Source of the DNA: Clostridiales bacterium
GTDB taxonomy: Bacteria > Bacillota > Clostridia > Christensenellales > Pumilibacteraceae
Length of the DNA: 45,793 nucleotides
Direction: 5' to 3'
NCBI GenBank assembly: GCA_029066805.1
Contig: JAIEFT010000021.1
Location: 1-45,793, forward strand
Part shown: one piece after another, positions 22,449 through 29,737 of the stretch
Layout: every line of letters starts with the position of its first letter
Position numbering within the stretch: the first letter of the stretch is position 1
Notes under the pieces: model-generated
Database searches by the model: none
Told to the model about the DNA's origin: nothing
Seen by the model: the letters and a program-made list of their open reading frames with translations, nothing else
Translations under genes and position numbers: made by a program

Positions 22449-22621
22449 GTTCGCTTGTGCTTACCGTCTGGGGACGGAATACGCCGCCTTGAAAAATTGT
22501 CAAGGGCGGCTATTTATTTCCCGTAGGGCATAAAGCCGCCGTCGCCTACGGCGCAAACCCTTGACAATTTTCCTGCGACGGCATTTTTTGCTGGTTAAGA
22601 CGGGTAAGCACCAAAGCGAAC
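22449..22621 (+). ncRNA. Structured leader element of recombinase 1 (copy L)
   Basis: A 173-bp element with nested pairing. The outer stem is GTTCGCTT-GTGCTTACC (22449-22465) with GGTAAGCAC (22603-22611) and AAGCGAAC (22614-22621). Hairpin 1 is CCGTC/GACGG (22464-22477). Stem A is AAAATTGTCAAGGG (22493-22506) with CCCTTGACAATTTT (22558-22571). Inside it lie CGGCT/AGCCG (22507-22511 with 22534-22538), a CCCGTAGGG hairpin (22520-22528) and CGCC/GGCG (22543-22553). A near copy precedes recombinase 2 in inverted orientation, with compensatory changes in two helices. It may be a leader RNA or a recombination site; I do not know a named family for it. Confidence 0.6.
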
Positions 22622-22672
22622 AACAAAATTTTTTAAGCCGCAGTCCGCACGGACGGCGCAAAGGAGCAGACA

Positions 22673-24241
22673 ATGAAAAACGCAGTTATTTACGCCCGTT
22701 TCAGTTCACACAGCCAAAACGAGCAGTCCATTGAGGGGCAATTAGCCGAGTGCTACGCTTTTGCACAGCGGAGCGAATTGCGCATAGTCCACGAGTACAT
22801 AGACCGCGCATTGACGGGTACGACGGACAAACGCCCCGAATTTTTGCAAATGGTTGAGGACAGCAAGCGCAAAGGCTTTCAGTACGTTATCGTTTACCAG
22901 CTTGACCGCTTTGCCCGTAACCGCTATGATAGCGCAACGTACAAAGCAAAGCTGAAAAAGAACGGCGTGCGCGTGCTGTCGGCAAAAGAGAATATCACGG
23001 ACGACGCCAGCGGTATTTTGGTTGAGGGCGTTTTGGAAAGTATGGCGGAATATTACAGCGCGGAATTGTCGCAAAAGATAAAGCGCGGTATAGCTATATC
23101 CGCCTCGAAATGCAAATTTTTCGGCGGCAAAGTCCCGCTCGGCTACAAGGTGGACGAACAAAAGAATTACATAATTGACGAGGACACCGCGCCCATCGTC
23201 AGAAAGGCGTTTGAAATGTTTGTCGCGGGCTACAACTATGCGGACATAGCGCGGTATATGAACGAGCGCGGAATAGCCACCTCGACGGGCGGCAAGTGGA
23301 ACAAGAACAGTTTTCGCAGACTTTTCAATAATAGGCGGTATTTGGGCAAGTACATTTATCACGACGAGGAAATAGACGGCGGTATGCCTCGCATTATCGA
23401 CGACAAGCTGTTTGACGAGGTGCAAGAGGTTTTGCGGAAATATGCCGCCGCGCCGTCGAGGGGCAAAGCAAAAGTCGAATATCTTTTGTCTGAAAAGCTG
23501 ATTTGCGGCAAATGCGCAAGCAAAATGACGGGTATAAGCTCGACGAGCAAAAGCGGCAAAATACACCATTATTACAAGTGAGTAGGCACGACAAAAGGCG
23601 TATGCGACAAACGGACAGTCCGCAAGCAGTTTATTGAGGACGAAATTGTAACCGCCTTGACGGGCGACGGCTCGGAGCAAAACCCGCACGGCGTTTTGAC
23701 CGACGAATTTATATATATGCTTGCCGCCGAAACCTATTTAATGATACAAGCGGAACGGAACGACAGCGAGATAAAACGGCTTGAAAGTGCCGTTGCGGAT
23801 AATCAAAAGGCAATAAACAACTTAATGCAGGCGTTAATGCTGGGCAAAATCGCCGACACGATTTTGGCGCAAATCGAAAAGCTGGAAAGCGAAAACAAGG
23901 AGTTGAACGACACCATAGCCAGCGAAAAGGCTTTACAAATCAATTACAGCTATGCGGACATTCGCAAGTGGTTGCTACATTTCCGCACGCTGGACTACTC
24001 AAAGACCAAAAACCGCAAAGACCTTATCGACACGTTTATTTATAGGGTACTTTTGTACGACGATAAAATGAAAGTCATATTCCACTTGAAAGGCGGTCAG
24101 AAAAACGAATTGCTTTTGAATTTGATTTTCCCCGATTACCCAGACGGCGGCGAGGACGAAACCAGCACAAAAGAAAAAGAAACCGCAAATGCGATTTCTC
24201 TTTCAGAGGGGTGTGCGTATACCCCCGTAATGGTGGACTAA
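22673..24241 (+). pseudogene. Large serine recombinase with in-frame TGA (recombinase 1)
   Basis: It would encode a 522-residue large serine recombinase. The catalytic domain at residues 1-140 has the YARFSSHSQNEQS motif with the nucleophile serine and QLDRFARNRYD. A Recombinase domain (about 150-260) and zinc ribbon (CGKC...HHYYK) follow, then a coiled coil (about 345-430). Codon 303 (23579-23581) is TGA exactly where the third zinc-ribbon cysteine belongs: recombinase 2 reads YYYACKQ at the aligned position. The frame is open on both sides of the stop. A TGC/TGT-to-TGA change is the simplest explanation; readthrough is conceivable but unsupported. AAAGGAG precedes the ATG. Its 3' end overlaps recombinase 2 tail to tail by 39 bp. 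Confidence 0.85.
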
Positions 24242-25760
24242 TGGTGATTGAGTTTGAACACCTTTCAAGCGTTCCAGCACCTCGTTTGTTTCGTCCAGTC
24301 GTACCCGTTCGATAGACTTATCAACGCCTAAATTCAGATAATTAACAACCTTGATATGTTCGTCGTCATAAAAATACACCATAAACACCAGATTGTCAAT
24401 GATTTTTCGCTGGTAGTCTTTGTCGGCTGGGTTGCCCTTGATAAGCTCTGCGACAAACGACAGTATGTCTTTCGCGGTAACTTTGCGCCCGCGCTCTAAT
24501 TCGATTTGCGACTTTTGCCCTTGTAGGTCATTCAACAGTATTTCGTACTCATTCATTTTCTTTTCAATGTTCGCACGGAGCAAAGCGTTTCGCGCCTCGA
24601 TAAATGCGTTTTTCTTGCTGGGCTTGTGCGATGCGCGTTTCAATGCTTTTCATTCCGTCGTCGCCCGTGCGTTTCTCATAGTAGGCGATAGTGTCGGCGG
24701 CGGCTCTCTCGGCGTTCTGCTTGTTACTTAAAAACTCTTGCACTTGCTTTACAACACGCATTTCCAGTTCGTCTTTGTTTTCACGCGCCTTGTCACATTT
24801 GCCTTTTTTCTTTTGCTTGCAAGCGTAATAGTAATGCTTTTTGCCGTTTTTGCCCGTGCCACCGTCGGCAACCATAGGCGTTTCGCAATGCCCGCAAAAC
24901 GCTTTGCCCGTAAGCAAATACGGCTCGACTGCTGAATTTGCGCCCGCCAAAATCTTGTTTTGGGCTAACCGCTTTTGCACGTCGGCAAACATTAACTTGT
25001 CAATGATTTGGGGGTAAACTGTGGTGCATAGCCTTTCGCCAAAGTAAAATTCGCCCGTATATTTCGGGTTGCTCAACCACTTGTCAAAAGTGCGCCCCTT
25101 GAACGGCTTGCCGTTAAAACGCAAACCTTTTGCGTTGAGTGCGGCGGCAATTTCGATTTTGTCCGTACCTTTGGCGTATTCGGTGAAAATGTAGCGGACG
25201 ATTTCGGCTTGCTCCTCGTCGATAGCGACTTTATGTATTATACCTTTTTTGCCCGTGCGGTCGGTGTCAACCAGCTTGTAGCCGTATATAAGCCGTGCGC
25301 CCGTAAACGTGCCGTTTTCCACGCTCGTGGTTAAACCGTCGCGTATGCGGACAGATAGCCGCTGGCTGTATTTCTCGTCGTTCCACTCGACAAACATTTC
25401 GTACAGTTCGCCGCCCTCGTCGTCGCTGACTGGCTCTAACGCTGACAAAACCTTAACGCCGTACTGCTCTTTGAGCTGGTGTTTTAACATCATGCTTTCA
25501 AAACGGTTGCGCTCGAAACGGTCAAACTTGTAAACTATGATATTCTGAAACGTGCGGCTCTGCGCGTCATGTAGCATTTGCTTAAACGACTTGCGCTTGT
25601 GCGTGTCTTTGGACGCGCTCTTTGCTTTCTCGGTGTAAACCTTGATAACATTTAGCCCTCTGCTTTGGGCGTACTCGGTGCAAATGCGTATTTGCCCCTC
25701 GATAGTCATTTCGTTCTGCGAGTGCGAACTGAAACGTGCGTAAATAACTGCGTTGTTCAT
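24203..25760 (-). pseudogene. Large serine recombinase with frameshift (recombinase 2)
   Basis: A second large serine recombinase, in convergent orientation. The N-terminal catalytic domain (YARFSSHSQNEM, YKFDRFERNRFE), Recombinase domain and a complete zinc ribbon (CGHC...YYYACKQ...KCDK) are intact. At about residue 383 the frame breaks in a run of five A on the minus strand (T-run 24609-24613); six A would restore QQEKNAFIEARN and join the C-terminal coiled coil that stays open to 24203. The lesion could be a real deletion, a sequencing or assembly slip at a homopolymer, or regulated slippage. By eye the protein is only distantly similar to recombinase 1, although the DNA leaders are nearly the same. 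It starts at ATG 25760 after AAAGGAG. Confidence 0.85.
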
Positions 25761-25809
25761 TTGTTGCTCCTTTGCGCCGTCCGTTGCGGACTGCGGCTTA
25801 AAAATTTGT

Positions 25810-25984
25810 GTTCGCTTGGGTGCTTACCAGCCTTAGCCAGCAAAAAATACCGACTAAGGAAAATTGTCAAGGGTTTGCCCCGTAGGGGTCGGCGGCTTTA
25901 TGCCTAACGGGAGATAAATAGCCGCCCTTGACAATTTTTCGAGGCGGTGATACCCCCGCCCTAAGGCGGTAAGCACACGCGAAT
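25810..25984 (-). ncRNA. Structured leader element of recombinase 2 (copy R)
   Basis: The inverted counterpart of the element at 22449-22621. It keeps the outer stem (GTGCTTACC at 25820-25828, GGTAAGCAC at 25968-25976), stem A (25860-25873 with 25925-25938) and the hairpins, and contains the same ATTTTTTGCTGG segment. Hairpin 1 is CCGCC/GGCGG (25956-25969) where copy L has CCGTC/GACGG. The second hairpin is CCCC/GGGG (25878-25888) where copy L has CGCC/GGCG. Both differences keep base pairing. It ends 50 bp before the recombinase 2 start codon. Confidence 0.6.
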
Positions 25985-26100
25985 ACAAAACTATTTGACT
26001 ATTATTGAAAACGAATAATCGCCAAAATGATTTTAGCAGAAATAGAACAAGAGAATTTATCGCAATATTGCTAATTAAGTCGTTTATTGTAATCATATAC

Positions 26101-26129
26101 TTGAAAAATACATTTATTTTTGCTATAAT
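26101..26129 (+). promoter_or_regulatory. Promoter of the methyltransferase-nuclease pair
   Basis: TTGAAA (26101-26106), a 17-bp spacer and TATAAT (26124-26129), leaving a short leader before the ATG at 26158. From 25985 to 26100 the DNA is AT-rich without a supported gene. Confidence 0.65.
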
Positions 26130-26157
26130 AAAAACAATACAAGTTTGTAGGTGCAAA

Positions 26158-27360
26158 ATGGCGAATATAAATCTATCAAAAGCAAAAAGCGCAAAAAACG
26201 ACGAGTTTTATACTCAATACGACGATATACAACGGGAAGTAAACGCATACCTCGAATACAACCCTGACGCATTTAGAGGGAAAACCGTATTGCTACCTTG
26301 CGACGACCCCGAGTGGAGCAACTTTACAAGATTTTTTGCACAAAATTTCGAGTTTTTTGGGCTTAAAAAATTGATAAGCACAAGCTATGCGGCTGATAGT
26401 AAACCGACTTTTATTCCGTATCAACTTTCTTTTTTTGAAACGGAAAGTCCGAAATTCGACGAGAAAAAGACACGCTCGCACGGCAAAATATTTACACTCA
26501 CGCACGATACAAATAATTCGGGCAGAATAGATATAGACGACTTGCAATGGGAATATTTAGATGGCGACGGCGATTTTCGGAGCGATGAGGTAAAGAAGTA
26601 CCGCGACGAGGCAGATATAATTATTACAAATCCGCCGTTCTCTCTGTTCCGCGAGTTCTTGGCTTGGATAGTAGAAAGCGGCAAACAGTTTGCCATAATC
26701 GGCAATATGAACGCAATCACATATAAAGAAGTCTTTCCGCTCATAAAGGGAAACAAGATGTGGTTAGGTGCAACAGCTAACGGTAGCGATATGGTGTTTG
26801 GTGTTCCAGAGGGTTACGAAGTTGCCGAGAAAGACAAAGAAAAAGCAGAACGGCTTGGATATAAAGGCAACTATACGCGGCTCGGCAATTCGTGCTGGTA
26901 CACTTCTATTGAACACGGGCGCAGACACCAGCCGTTAAGCCTTATGACAATGGAAGATAATATTGCGTTTAGTAGGCATAAAGAAATACGCGGTACTGGG
27001 TATAGAAAGTATGATAATTATGACGCAATCGAAGTGCCTTTTGTGGACGCCATACCGAGCGACTATGACGGTGTAATGGGTGTGCCGATTAGCTTTTTGG
27101 ATAAGTACAACCCCGAGCAATTTGTAATTTTGGGTGCAACGCAAAGAGGTTGTCATAATGAAGTCCCCGATACAAAACGATATGACGATTTTTGGGAAGT
27201 TCGACAGGACGGCAGTAAGACAGGCGCAACGGGTGTCAAGACAAATGAGAACGCAAATTTAGCGCAAAATGACGGCAAGCATAATTATTTTGTTAATAGT
27301 CAAGGCGTTATGATACAATCTGCCTATCAAAGAATTTTTATAAGATTTAAGCGAGGATAA
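26158..27360 (+). CDS. EcoRI-type adenine-specific DNA methyltransferase
   Basis: A 400-residue protein of the EcoRI methyltransferase family. It begins [19 protein letters not shown], then [20 protein letters not shown] (a SAM-binding region), and carries the catalytic motif [11 protein letters not shown] at about residue 158, diagnostic of N6-adenine methylation. The start is ATG 26158; the frame extends upstream through promoter sequence. The length is full. It is followed after 4 bp by a DUF262-HNH nuclease gene rather than by an EcoRI-like restriction enzyme, so the pair may form a restriction-modification-like or methylation-sensing system. The recognition site is unknown. Confidence 0.88.
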
Positions 27361-27364
27361 GCAA

Positions 27365-28525
27365 ATGAAAACTACGCTCAAAACTGAAATCACAGTAGAG
27401 GAAATCTGCAAAGGCTTTGTCTATAATGAGTACGAGGGCAAAGGTCTGTTCGGTCTTTCGGGCAAGCTCACGATACAGCCCGAATATCAACGTAACTACA
27501 TATACGCCGACGGCAAGCGCGACGTGGCGGTTATTTATTCCGTGCTAAAAGGCTATCCGCTCGGACTTATATACTTTACCAAAGTAGCCGACGATAAGTT
27601 TGAGGTTTTAGACGGTCAACAACGCATTACCAGTTTGGGGCGTTATTTAACAAACAAATTCAAAATCATTATCGACGGGAAAGAGGTCTATTTTTCGGGG
27701 CTTGCCGCCGACTTGCAAGCAAAGATACTGCAAACCAAACTTTTGATTTACGAGTGCGAAGGCACGGAAAGCGAAATCAAAGAGTGGTTTAGGACTATAA
27801 ATATAGCAGGCGTACCGCTCAACGAGCAAGAATTATCCAACGCAATCCACAGCGGTCCGTTCGTAACGAAAGCAAAAGAGGAATTTAGCAACAGTCAAAA
27901 CGCGAATATTCAAAAGTGGAGCGCGTTTATTGCCGGCAACGTAAATCGTCAAGATTATTTGCGTACTGCTTTTGACTGGGTAAGTAAAGGTCATATCGAC
28001 GAGTATATGAGTTTGCACCGCTACGACGATAATATAACGGAATTAAAAACGTATTTTAATACGGTTATAGATTGGGCACGGAGCGTATTCCGCAACATAG
28101 AAAAAGAAATGTGTGGTCTTCCGTGGGGCGAGCTTTATGAACAATATCATACGACAGCATATAATCCGCAAACCGTTGCGGATCAAGTAAAGAAATTATA
28201 TGCCGACCCGTATGTTAAAAACCGCAAGGGCATATTCGAGTATATATTAGGTGGTTGTACTGACGGCAAATTGCTTGATGTTCGCGTGTTCGACGACGCA
28301 ACCAAACAATCGGTGTATCGCAAGCAAACTGCGGACGCGACAGCGCATAGCGTTTCTAACTGTCCTCTTTGCGCTCTCGGCTCTGACGCTAACAAAACGC
28401 GAATTTGGAAATTAAACGAAATGGACGCCGACCATATAACAGCTTGGAGTAAAGGCGGCGCAACAGATATTGCAAACTGTCAAATGTTATGCAAGACACA
28501 CAATCGCGCAAAAGGCAATAGATAA
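27365..28525 (+). CDS. DUF262 and HNH endonuclease domain protein
   Basis: A 386-residue protein. The N-terminal DUF262 (ParB/sulfiredoxin-like) domain shows [16 protein letters not shown] at about residues 37-52 and the [13 protein letters not shown] motif at about 85-97, used for nucleotide-driven activity in GmrS-like proteins. The C-terminal HNH nuclease has CPLC, then [16 protein letters not shown], then [14 protein letters not shown]. This order resembles a GmrSD-type modification-dependent nuclease joined in one chain. Its start lies 4 bp after the methyltransferase stop, with GAGGA inside the end of that gene, so the two are cotranslated. It is the probable cutting partner of a defence cassette. 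Confidence 0.87.
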
Positions 28526-28544
28526 TTACTTATTAGTATTACTT

Positions 28545-28667
28545 TATACGCCACCCCGTAACACTGTAACACTTTTGCAAAAAAGAACGGCATAGGCGTG
28601 GCGGCGACAGCCGCCACGCTGTGGCGTATAGTATTACCACGCCACCCCGTAACGTGTAACACTTTTG
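28545..28667. repeat. Nested hairpin with duplicated flanks
   Basis: A perfect outer inverted repeat, TATACGCCAC (28545-28554) and GTGGCGTATA (28621-28630), encloses a perfect GC-rich 10-bp hairpin, GCGTGGCGGC-GACA-GCCGCCACGC (28596-28619). A 30-bp segment (28548-28577: CGCCACCCCGTAAC and GTAACACTTTTG with small differences) is repeated at 28639-28667. It lies between the nuclease and the next gene. It may be a small repeat element, a terminator-like barrier or an RNA; minus-strand frames through it are not credible genes. Confidence 0.7.
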
Positions 28668-28698
28668 GCGTAAATACAAAAAATAGAGCGAAAGAATA

Positions 28699-29511
28699 AT
28701 GGTTGATATATCAAAATACTTAAACAATGAAACATTTTTGATAAATGATAAAAGCACGTGGCATCAAAATTTGCTGGACTTGATAGAAAGCAATAAGTCG
28801 CTTATTAGAAACTATAACTATATTGAAACTTATAATTCTAATTTGCGTGAAAAAGCAAAAAAATGCACGCCAGTTAATTATTTAGATTTACATAGAACAA
28901 ATCCGTATTATGATGATTTAGGATATGTAAAAGAATGTGTAAAATCCGAATTGCAGAAATTAACGATAATAGGTTATCACGCAACAAGACTAACAAATGA
29001 AGAAATTGTTAAAATCAAAAATGGCGGTTTGATAACTTCAAGTAAAGAAAATTGCTATGAACGAGCTGATAATTTGCTTTTACACGGATATATCTCAAAG
29101 AATGAATGTGATTATATAAAAAGTCATTGCATTCTAAATGTTCCATTAGAAGCAAATAGAATTGGGCAAATTTGGTTTCTTGCTGGTAGTTGTGATATTT
29201 CAACAAAAGATACGGGGTTAAATAATTTATATAAAGACTACGGCGGTGAAACTATTAGAAATGGAATTGAGAATACGCCGCTTTTAGAGAAACTGAACGC
29301 AATAAGTAAACCGTGTAGCGTTATTTCGTATGTTCAATTAAATACTGTTCCTTATTATCTCATTGATACATTGGCGGAAAAATTATTGTTAAAAAGCAAT
29401 AAAAGAGATATAAGCAAAATTTCCTTTGAATTGTATTCACAAAGTAAAACAATTCCAGTTATAGATATAATTTATGTGAATGAACATACCAAATTAAAAA
29501 TTAAGAAATAA
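28699..29511 (+). CDS. Unrecognised AT-rich cargo gene, ADP-ribosyltransferase-like motif
   Basis: A 270-residue protein with no signal peptide or membrane helices and clearly more AT-rich codons than its neighbours, a sign of transfer. At about residue 94 it has IIGYHATRLTNEEIVKIKNG, where YHATR followed by a helix and a small loop recalls the first strand of H-Y-E type ADP-ribosyltransferases; no second and third motif is certain. Polar residues dominate the rest. It follows the hairpin repeat rather than the nuclease directly, so membership of the defence cassette is possible but open. No strong Shine-Dalgarno sequence is seen (GAGCGAAAG lies upstream). Confidence 0.6.
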   Translation: MVDISKYLNNETFLINDKSTWHQNLLDLIESNKSLIRNYNYIETYNSNLREKAKKCTPVNYLDLHRTNPYYDDLGYVKECVKSELQKLTIIGYHATRLTNEEIVKIKNGGLITSSKENCYERADNLLLHGYISKNECDYIKSHCILNVPLEANRIGQIWFLAGSCDISTKDTGLNNLYKDYGGETIRNGIENTPLLEKLNAISKPCSVISYVQLNTVPYYLIDTLAEKLLLKSNKRDISKISFELYSQSKTIPVIDIIYVNEHTKLKIKK

Positions 29512-29548
29512 AGTTGATAAAATGTTCTTTCCACTATGATAGCAATAG

Positions 29549-29580
29549 AAAAAGCACAAGGAATATACCTTGTGCTTTTT
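29549..29580. terminator. Strong bidirectional terminator at the island edge
   Basis: A perfect 13-bp stem (AAAAAGCACAAGG/CCTTGTGCTTTTT) with a 6-nt loop separates the AT-rich gene from tRNA-Ala and can act on either strand. The rest of 29581-29661 shows no gene. Confidence 0.88.
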
Positions 29581-29661
29581 CCTTACTGGTATGCGACAAA
29601 ACCTGCAACACCGTTGACGAAAATGTATTCGTATTTCGTGGTGTTCAAACTTTGACGACAA

Positions 29662-29737
29662 TGGTGGAGATAGTGGGACTCGAACCCATGACCTATGCGT
29701 TGCGAACGCATCGCTCTACCAACTGAGCTATATCCCC
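29662..29737 (-). tRNA. tRNA-Ala (anticodon CGC)
   Basis: A 76-nt cloverleaf with encoded CCA. The acceptor stem is GGGGATA/TATCTCC with the G3:U70 pair that marks alanine tRNAs. The anticodon loop TTCGCAA within an ATGCG/CGCAT stem gives CGC, reading GCG. The T-arm has the standard GGTTCGAGTCC. It lies at the right edge of the AT-rich island. Confidence 0.95.

Follow-up and report, generated by a model that had tools for sequence, protein, structure and literature searches.

The DNA examined here (the window) is a 45,793-nucleotide stretch of contig JAIEFT010000021.1 from a Clostridiales bacterium of the family Pumilibacteraceae (assembly GCA_029066805.1, positions 1 to 45,793). An element of ~170 bp is present twice in the window, at 22449-22621 on the plus strand and at 25810-25984 on the minus strand, each time ahead of a gene for a large serine recombinase (LSR); a third copy is found on contig C41 of the same genome. 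The element belongs to a conserved, covarying hairpin family that occurs in phage-like mobile elements, mostly before integrases. The original prediction for this locus had described a structured element, paired in inverted orientation, before two dissimilar recombinases. The two copies are present as described and can be aligned through the element, the following ~60-nt spacer and the first ~30 codons, with about 86% identity. The recombinases, which had been said to share mainly motifs, are more alike than that, with ~34% identity across ~380 amino acids (aa). Both genes are broken, recombinase 1 by an in-frame TGA (23579-23581) and recombinase 2 by its division between two frames. This TGA occupies an apparent zinc-ribbon cysteine position in a 522-codon frame that is otherwise open. 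Both proteins are serine recombinases (PF00239/PF07508) and not IS110 proteins, so the IS110 neighbour by which a bridge RNA is recognized is not found here.

Conserved fold of the element

The modelled fold consists of an outer stem, stem A, a core hairpin and a small hairpin (Table 1). Pairing was scored in an alignment of 31 leaders, comprising 51 pairs and 1575 cells. In this set 96.8% of the cells pair and 8 pairs have changed on both sides, while the core hairpin is invariant. The covariation score was matched by 0/500 shuffles, a test that ignores kinship, and all slid controls scored lower. These results support the selection on pairing that had been proposed from the two window copies, and the first description of the outer stem and of the 14-bp stem A (22493-22506 / 22558-22571) was correct. 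The compensatory change CGCC/GGCG versus CCCC/GGGG was also borne out: the varying pair of the small hairpin is GC in 17 leaders, CG in 13 and UA in 1. Among the Patescibacteria copies, the core C-G is replaced by G-C in 4/8.

A second helix with proposed compensatory changes, CCGTC/GACGG, proved weaker as a local hairpin, with 83.2% of its cells paired; at four of the five pairs, 4-7 of the 31 leaders do not pair. When its left strand instead lengthens the outer stem by pairing with a distal GAC/GGC (GTC/GAC or GCC/GGC), 98.7% of the helix cells are paired and the varying pair is UA in 22 leaders, CG in 7 and unpaired in 2; the extension therefore fits better than the local hairpin. The two folds compete for one strand, left CCGTC/CCGCC, and involve columns 14-18, 24-28 and 159-164 of alignment A4 (window 22464-22468, 22472-22478 and 22600-22604). 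The segment ATTTTTTGCTGG, reported as conserved and unpaired, is unpaired, but its conservation is only partial (ATTTTTTGCTGG, GTTTTTGGCTAA and similar). As the original prediction had supposed, no named RNA family covers the element: a search of Rfam release 15 gave nothing at the gathering threshold and nothing relevant up to E 10.

As single strands, 20/20 representatives fold into long, stable stem-loops, with DNA-parameter z values from -2.9 to -9.6 for both strands. In 51/67 elements the sense strand folds less stably than the antisense strand, a weak lean toward the latter. Wobble asymmetry is likewise weak, with 23 A.C versus 6 G.T cells, but 9 versus 6 pair columns.

Table 1. Features of the locus, with positions in the window
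Feature	Position	Strand	Remarks
Element copy 1, outer stem to outer stem	22450..22620	+	
Outer stem P1, 5' strand TTCGCTTGTGCTTACC	22450..22465	+	Partner is 22603-22620
Outer stem P1, 3' strand GGTAAGCACCAAAGCGAA	22603..22620	+	
Stem A, 5' arm AAAATTGTCAAGGG	22493..22506	+	Minus-strand TTGACA at 22498-22503 is the proposed -35, on the non-template arm
Stem A, 3' arm CCCTTGACAATTTT	22558..22571	+	TTGAC near-invariant among relatives (57/66 elements)
TATTCC, weak candidate -10	22476..22481	-	16 nt from TTGACA; 3/6 match, equal to the null mean
Core hairpin TTTATTTCCCGTAGGGCATAAA (consensus TTTATYTCCCGTNNGGCATAAA)	22513..22534	+	
Small hairpin CGCCTACGGCG	22543..22553	+	Compensatory changes
Unpaired, partly conserved ATTTTTTGCTGG	22583..22594	+	Internal loop facing the candidate -10
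AAAGGAG, likely ribosome-binding site of recombinase 1	22660..22666	+	Read from the sequence
Recombinase 1, LSR	22673..24241	+	Resolvase, Recombinase, start of Zn ribbon
Element copy 2	25816..25984	-	22-mer core at 25897-25918
Recombinase 2, LSR	24203..25760	-	Frames 25760-24564 and 24643-24203
TGGTGGA attachment core	24231..24237	+	Common to both recombinase gene 3' ends
Other attachment half-site	29641..29668	+	tRNA-Ala 3' end
Cargo: EcoRI-type methylase and GmrSD_N/HNH protein	26158..28525	+	

Distribution of the element and of related stems

An exact search for the 22-mer TTTATNTCCCGTNNGGCATAAA in the genomes of 84,980 species gave 70 matches in 69 stretches, so that further copies do exist beyond this locus. 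In 41 of the 70 an LSR starts within 600 nt after the core (24 rec1-like, 17 rec2-like). The distance from core to LSR is 129-194 nt in 37 of these 41 and 482-547 nt in L052, L098 and L107; in L079, also among the 41, the element lacks its 3' half. The remaining matches lie before a truncated LSR (4), at a contig end (5) or elsewhere (20). The association with LSRs stands, but these last 20 show that the element is not tied to serine recombinases, and they go part of the way toward what had been named as evidence against the original prediction, copies without recombinase genes. Two of them precede tyrosine integrases (L047, L068), three lie in intergenic DNA of phage Rep or Zot loci (L060, L091, L104), four are in Patescibacteria (L073, L097 and, twice, L105), and one is an intact element without a recombinase (L050). 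Six more are degenerate or truncated copies (L053, L081, L083, L106, L108, L114; sorted by eye). The last four (L069, L072, L094, L099) have no stem, look by eye like coding or chance matches, and were excluded from the counts of sense/antisense folding, TTGAC and -10 sequences. Apart from degenerate and chance matches, most copies of this group sit in or beside mobile-element genes.

In two Patescibacteria genomes, 8/8 copies lie ~100 nt before the start of an open reading frame (ORF) with a ribosome-binding site, either RadC or a small gene; one of these genomes has six copies, each preceding a gene. Within the family, 12/74 genomes had matches, the window's own included. A quick tree built from 28 leaders requires the recombinase type to change at least 3 times, which indicates that leaders have switched recombinases.

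Sixteen loci examined with 1-2 mismatches to the 22-mer were chance-like and without the stem, the exceptions being L129 and L169 (GA for GT). A viral collection gave zero matches with two patterns and no relative from two Rep queries, and plasmid and phage collections (72,556 plasmid records) gave no DNA match to copy 1. A class-level search was positive in 1/391 genomes, the window's own.

The stems extend further than the 22-mer. Rec1-type LSR leaders of genome G069 have similar outer and TTGACA stems with a different tip, and a rec1-type leader of G070 has the TTGACA stem with yet another tip. A search for the stem pattern TGTCAAGGN{45,75}CCTTGACA found it in 22/297 genomes of the order, versus 2 for the reversed control; these 22 are not all family members, because three hold a dispersed hairpin repeat and some others likely chance or coding matches. 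The pattern precedes transposase-like genes (L240, L243, L244; the two scanned matched HTH_38 or rve_3 below Pfam cut-offs) as well as a different LSR (L241), and in L247 it lies near a CRESS Rep. The TTGACA stem is thus retained despite other tips and other integrase types.

Several copies have suffered deletions. In L036, L037, L039, L040 and L041 the 5' half of the hairpin is kept, and the 3' half and part of the recombinase are lost; in L038 the middle of the element is missing. At L050/L122 an intact element is flanked by two TetR genes and the recombinase is gone, as though a window-like locus had undergone deletion between direct repeats of the outer stem, taking recombinase 1, recombinase 2 and copy 2 with it. 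L098 and L143 have an ORF for a 128-aa serine-recombinase-like protein between leader and LSR.

Promoter-like boxes and strand orientation

The TTGACA of stem A matches the -35 consensus, and candidate -10 sequences were scored as hexamer matches 15-18 nt from it, against a null that keeps single-base composition only. Results were compared for the far arm, which is the arm distant from the gene and the non-template arm of the folded template strand, and for the near arm. The far arm had a mean of 3.71 matches versus 2.98 for the null (26 clusters, 0/500). In the 9 clusters for which no divergent gene was seen on the left (7 with a co-directional gene, 2 with none) the excess was 3.89 versus 2.78 (0/500), and it was also present in the rec1/rec2 class (16 clusters, 0/500). 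The near arm was not above chance (3.00 versus 3.11; 20 clusters, 363/500). An earlier version of the test gave 0/300 for the far arm and 217/300 for the near arm. Matches to promoter boxes are in excess on the arm that only the folded strand could use for the recombinase gene.

L170 has TTGACC-16-TATAAT and L232 has TTGACA-18-TATAAC (both by eye), and the 8 Patescibacteria copies have TATAAT, TAAAAT or TACAAT at 16-18 nt. In L163, L167, L172 and L173 (Patescibacteria) the left ORF is co-directional, which leaves a left-pointing promoter without an obvious role in double-stranded DNA. The unpaired ATTTTTTGCTGG of the LSR leaders lies in a loop opposite the weak -10.

The best-mapped setting of the element is in Anaerocaecibacter muris, where the LSR closes a ~12-kb prophage-like region that starts at a tRNA-Ala gene. 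In strain CLA-AA-M11 of this species a prophage-like locus (L030/L148) has its recombinase frame open. The order is tRNA-Ala, CRESS Rep (PF02407, 2.7e-18), P-loop ATPase, small proteins, three membrane proteins (judged by eye), sigma-70 region-4 protein, TetR, element and LSR. The ATPase has a relative in the Zot-like protein of L091, and the membrane proteins have homologues in L027, L029 and L088; L104 has a G2P-type Rep (PF23343), and L060 and L247 have CRESS Reps. Pfam gave no match for any membrane or small protein scanned, and PHROGs recognized neither the A. muris ATPase nor the one membrane protein scanned. The term "filamentous-phage-like" is therefore based on Rep, on the order of the genes and on the resemblance between the ATPase and the L091 Zot-like protein. 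The host elements look like the inovirus prophages with serine recombinases and CRESS-type Rep; a figure legend in a survey of that kind names both serine recombinases and one RCR family with an S3H motif (Roux et al. 2019; PMC6813254). The words "hairpin" and "intergenic" are absent from the main text of the survey. On the reading that we favour, the carriers are integrating filamentous-phage-like elements of Clostridia and small derivatives of them.

Attachment half-sites with inverted arms were found in A. muris at the tRNA-Ala gene and at the 3' end of the recombinase gene. They recur in the window, and 24231-29661 therefore reads as one integrated element of 5.4 kb. It contains recombinase 2, its leader, an EcoRI-type methylase and a GmrSD_N/HNH protein, is without the phage genes searched for, and may be a phage satellite with a defence system as cargo.

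The core is antisense to the phage-type genes in 18/18 records, or 16/16 without duplicates (L027, L028, L029, L030, L035, L046, L059, L060, L083, L088, L091, L096, L104, L111, L112, L113), with 9 of the 16 loci relying on a sigma-like gene alone. The packaged strand of known inoviruses is the sense strand of the phage genes. If that is so here, the presumed packaged strand is the LSR template. The small sigma-70 region-4 protein itself recurs beside the LSR in L027, L028, L029, L030, L035, L046, L059, L083, L088, L096, L111, L112 and L113.

A candidate single-stranded-DNA promoter and its rivals

The nearest functional model for the element is the Frpo promoters of F and ColIb-P9. Frpo/ssi is described as a long hairpin before the early genes, where the entering strand folds and so rebuilds a -35 and a -10 (PMC11541004, PMC9849209). 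F Frpo2 resembles the element in forming a long stem, and its tip is A/T-rich; the carriers here differ in being filamentous-phage-like elements, the genes are integrases, and the tip is a near-invariant 22-mer. The covarying structure, the phage-like setting, the orientation of the core, the -10 excess on the far arm, the left flank without a promoter signal, the persistence of the TTGACA stem with other tips and integrases, and the Patescibacteria copies placed before ORF starts all count in favour of an Frpo-like single-stranded-DNA promoter. We judge this reading an even call; the element might in addition be an origin of the complementary strand. On entering the cell, the packaged (or transferred) strand would fold into the hairpin. 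The stem would supply a double-stranded -35 (TTGACA), and the far arm would supply a non-template -10 facing an unpaired template. Host RNA polymerase, predicted to bind there, would leave the hairpin at its base and continue into the gene for the recombinase or integrase, for which the entering strand itself would be the template, and the hairpin transcript could also prime the complementary strand. In double-stranded DNA the -35 and -10 boxes would be directed away from the gene, and expression would stop. The polarity of the packaged strand, folding in vivo, RNA polymerase binding and the timing are what we infer.

A broader proposal, to which we would give somewhat less than even credence, is that a hitherto undescribed family of promoters active only in single strands allows temperate filamentous phages and phage satellites to express integrase directly from the strand that infects. 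Integration would be tied to the single-stranded state, and the module would have moved among serine, tyrosine and transposase-type integrases and Patescibacteria RadC. To our knowledge, the timing of integrase expression in temperate filamentous phages has been little studied. If the proposal is true, the switch lies in the DNA: the gene could be read from the incoming single strand only and would be off once the second strand is made. Single-strand promoters would then extend from conjugative plasmids to phages, with a searchable signature, and the variety of integrases and tips makes the idea testable. Within our searches of open papers we saw no description of the element; one directed at structured RNA leaders upstream of serine recombinases found none.

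A number of results weigh against a single-strand promoter. The -10 is weak in the LSR class, and the far-arm signal is weaker outside the rec1/rec2 class (10 clusters, 7/500). The promoter case gains little from the window itself, where copy 1 is at the null mean with 3.0 and copy 2 reaches 3.5; scores are below the null mean in L104, L059, L068 and L108 and at it in L053, L056 and L107. The clusters of the -10 test (less than 75% identity) are still related, and the -35 was picked by a rule that was wrong for L059, L068, L073 and L105+6167, rows that were kept in the count. In many LSR copies the gene to the left (TetR, methylase) is divergent and could be served by an ordinary promoter, and the more distant LSRs of the same order that were examined lack the element. 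The template strand folds only slightly better than the other (14/20 with DNA parameters, 13/20 with RNA parameters). Near-arm TTGAC is missing in 9/66 elements; six of these are truncated, L063 is degenerate, L107 has it farther off, and L167 (GTGAC) is a true exception. A promoter role also leaves the near-invariant 22-mer tip unexplained. Finally, no sequence kinship with known Frpo was found: F 48-67 kb matches the core with 5 mismatches at best, and neither TTGACA nor TATAAT occurs exactly in the stretch of F Frpo2 examined; for these reasons we do not file the element as a member of Frpo.

The main rival, which we consider rather unlikely, is a cis-acting leader RNA, as the original prediction had suggested: the element would be a transcribed 5' untranslated region whose fold controls the recombinase by attenuation or at translation. 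The strong compensatory pairing, the regular spacing before most of the LSRs, and the position of all eight Patescibacteria copies before an ORF start are what such a leader would show. There is also an analogue in EGeRS1 of the pLS20 family, which is 400-600 bp long, structured and directly before establishment genes. Its authors found no double-strand promoter, report that the leaders block read-through, and reject a single-stranded-DNA reading, arguing that the transferred strand is the non-template strand (PMC8708921). The 22-mer was absent, at up to 3 mismatches, from the 50 of 65.8 kb of pLS20 examined. Against a leader RNA, no promoter signal toward the element was found in the left flank of the LSR leaders (20 clusters, 170/300), the sense strand folds the less stably of the two, and L060, L091 and L104 have no sense ORF of at least 40 aa close downstream. 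It also leaves the far-arm -10 matches unexplained. For a guide or scaffold RNA nothing was found in support, and no search for complementarity between loops and targets was made.

The filamentous-phage-like context, and retention of the element in the satellite-like 5.4-kb element, would also suit a packaging signal, that is, a viral-strand hairpin bound by coat or cap proteins, such as M13 uses (PMC10480500). This is improbable. The M13 intergenic region, which holds the complementary-strand origin and packaging signal, resembles the element in having hairpins in non-coding DNA of a filamentous phage, but no matching stem or tip was seen in it. A packaging signal also fits poorly with the Patescibacteria genome in which all six copies precede a gene, and with a TTGACA that stays constant while the tip varies. 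Less probable again is ordinary double-stranded regulation, in which the far arm would be the promoter or operator of a divergent neighbour and the repeat would arise from paired binding sites. The -35 consensus and the divergent TetR or methylase genes of many LSR elements would agree with it, but the -10 excess persists in the clusters without a divergent gene, and several helices covary, small tips included. The folded recombination site of the original prediction fared worst, and we regard an LSR attachment site as largely refuted and very improbable. Inverted repeats at the ends of the element, and the intact element of L050/L122 between two left-type flanks, had made it worth considering. 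The mapped attachment sites, however, are at the opposite end of the recombinase gene from the element, often at tRNA 3' ends. Tyrosine integrases and RadC genes, moreover, are preceded by this core as well.

Three further features were seen near the element or its stems. A reverse-transcriptase-like gene (by eye) lies 138-1217 nt upstream of the core in L167, just before a leader-bearing RadC gene of Patescibacteria, and a MobV-type relaxase-like gene (by eye; L037:13458-14201) lies 6 kb from a truncated element. In G219, G241 and G318 (L257, L259, L260) a dispersed hairpin of 62-65 bp, TGTCAAGG...CCTTGACA, is present in 22, 10 and 8 copies per genome, respectively. At the loci read it adjoins a GC-rich terminator-like hairpin, and it is REP- or MITE-like.

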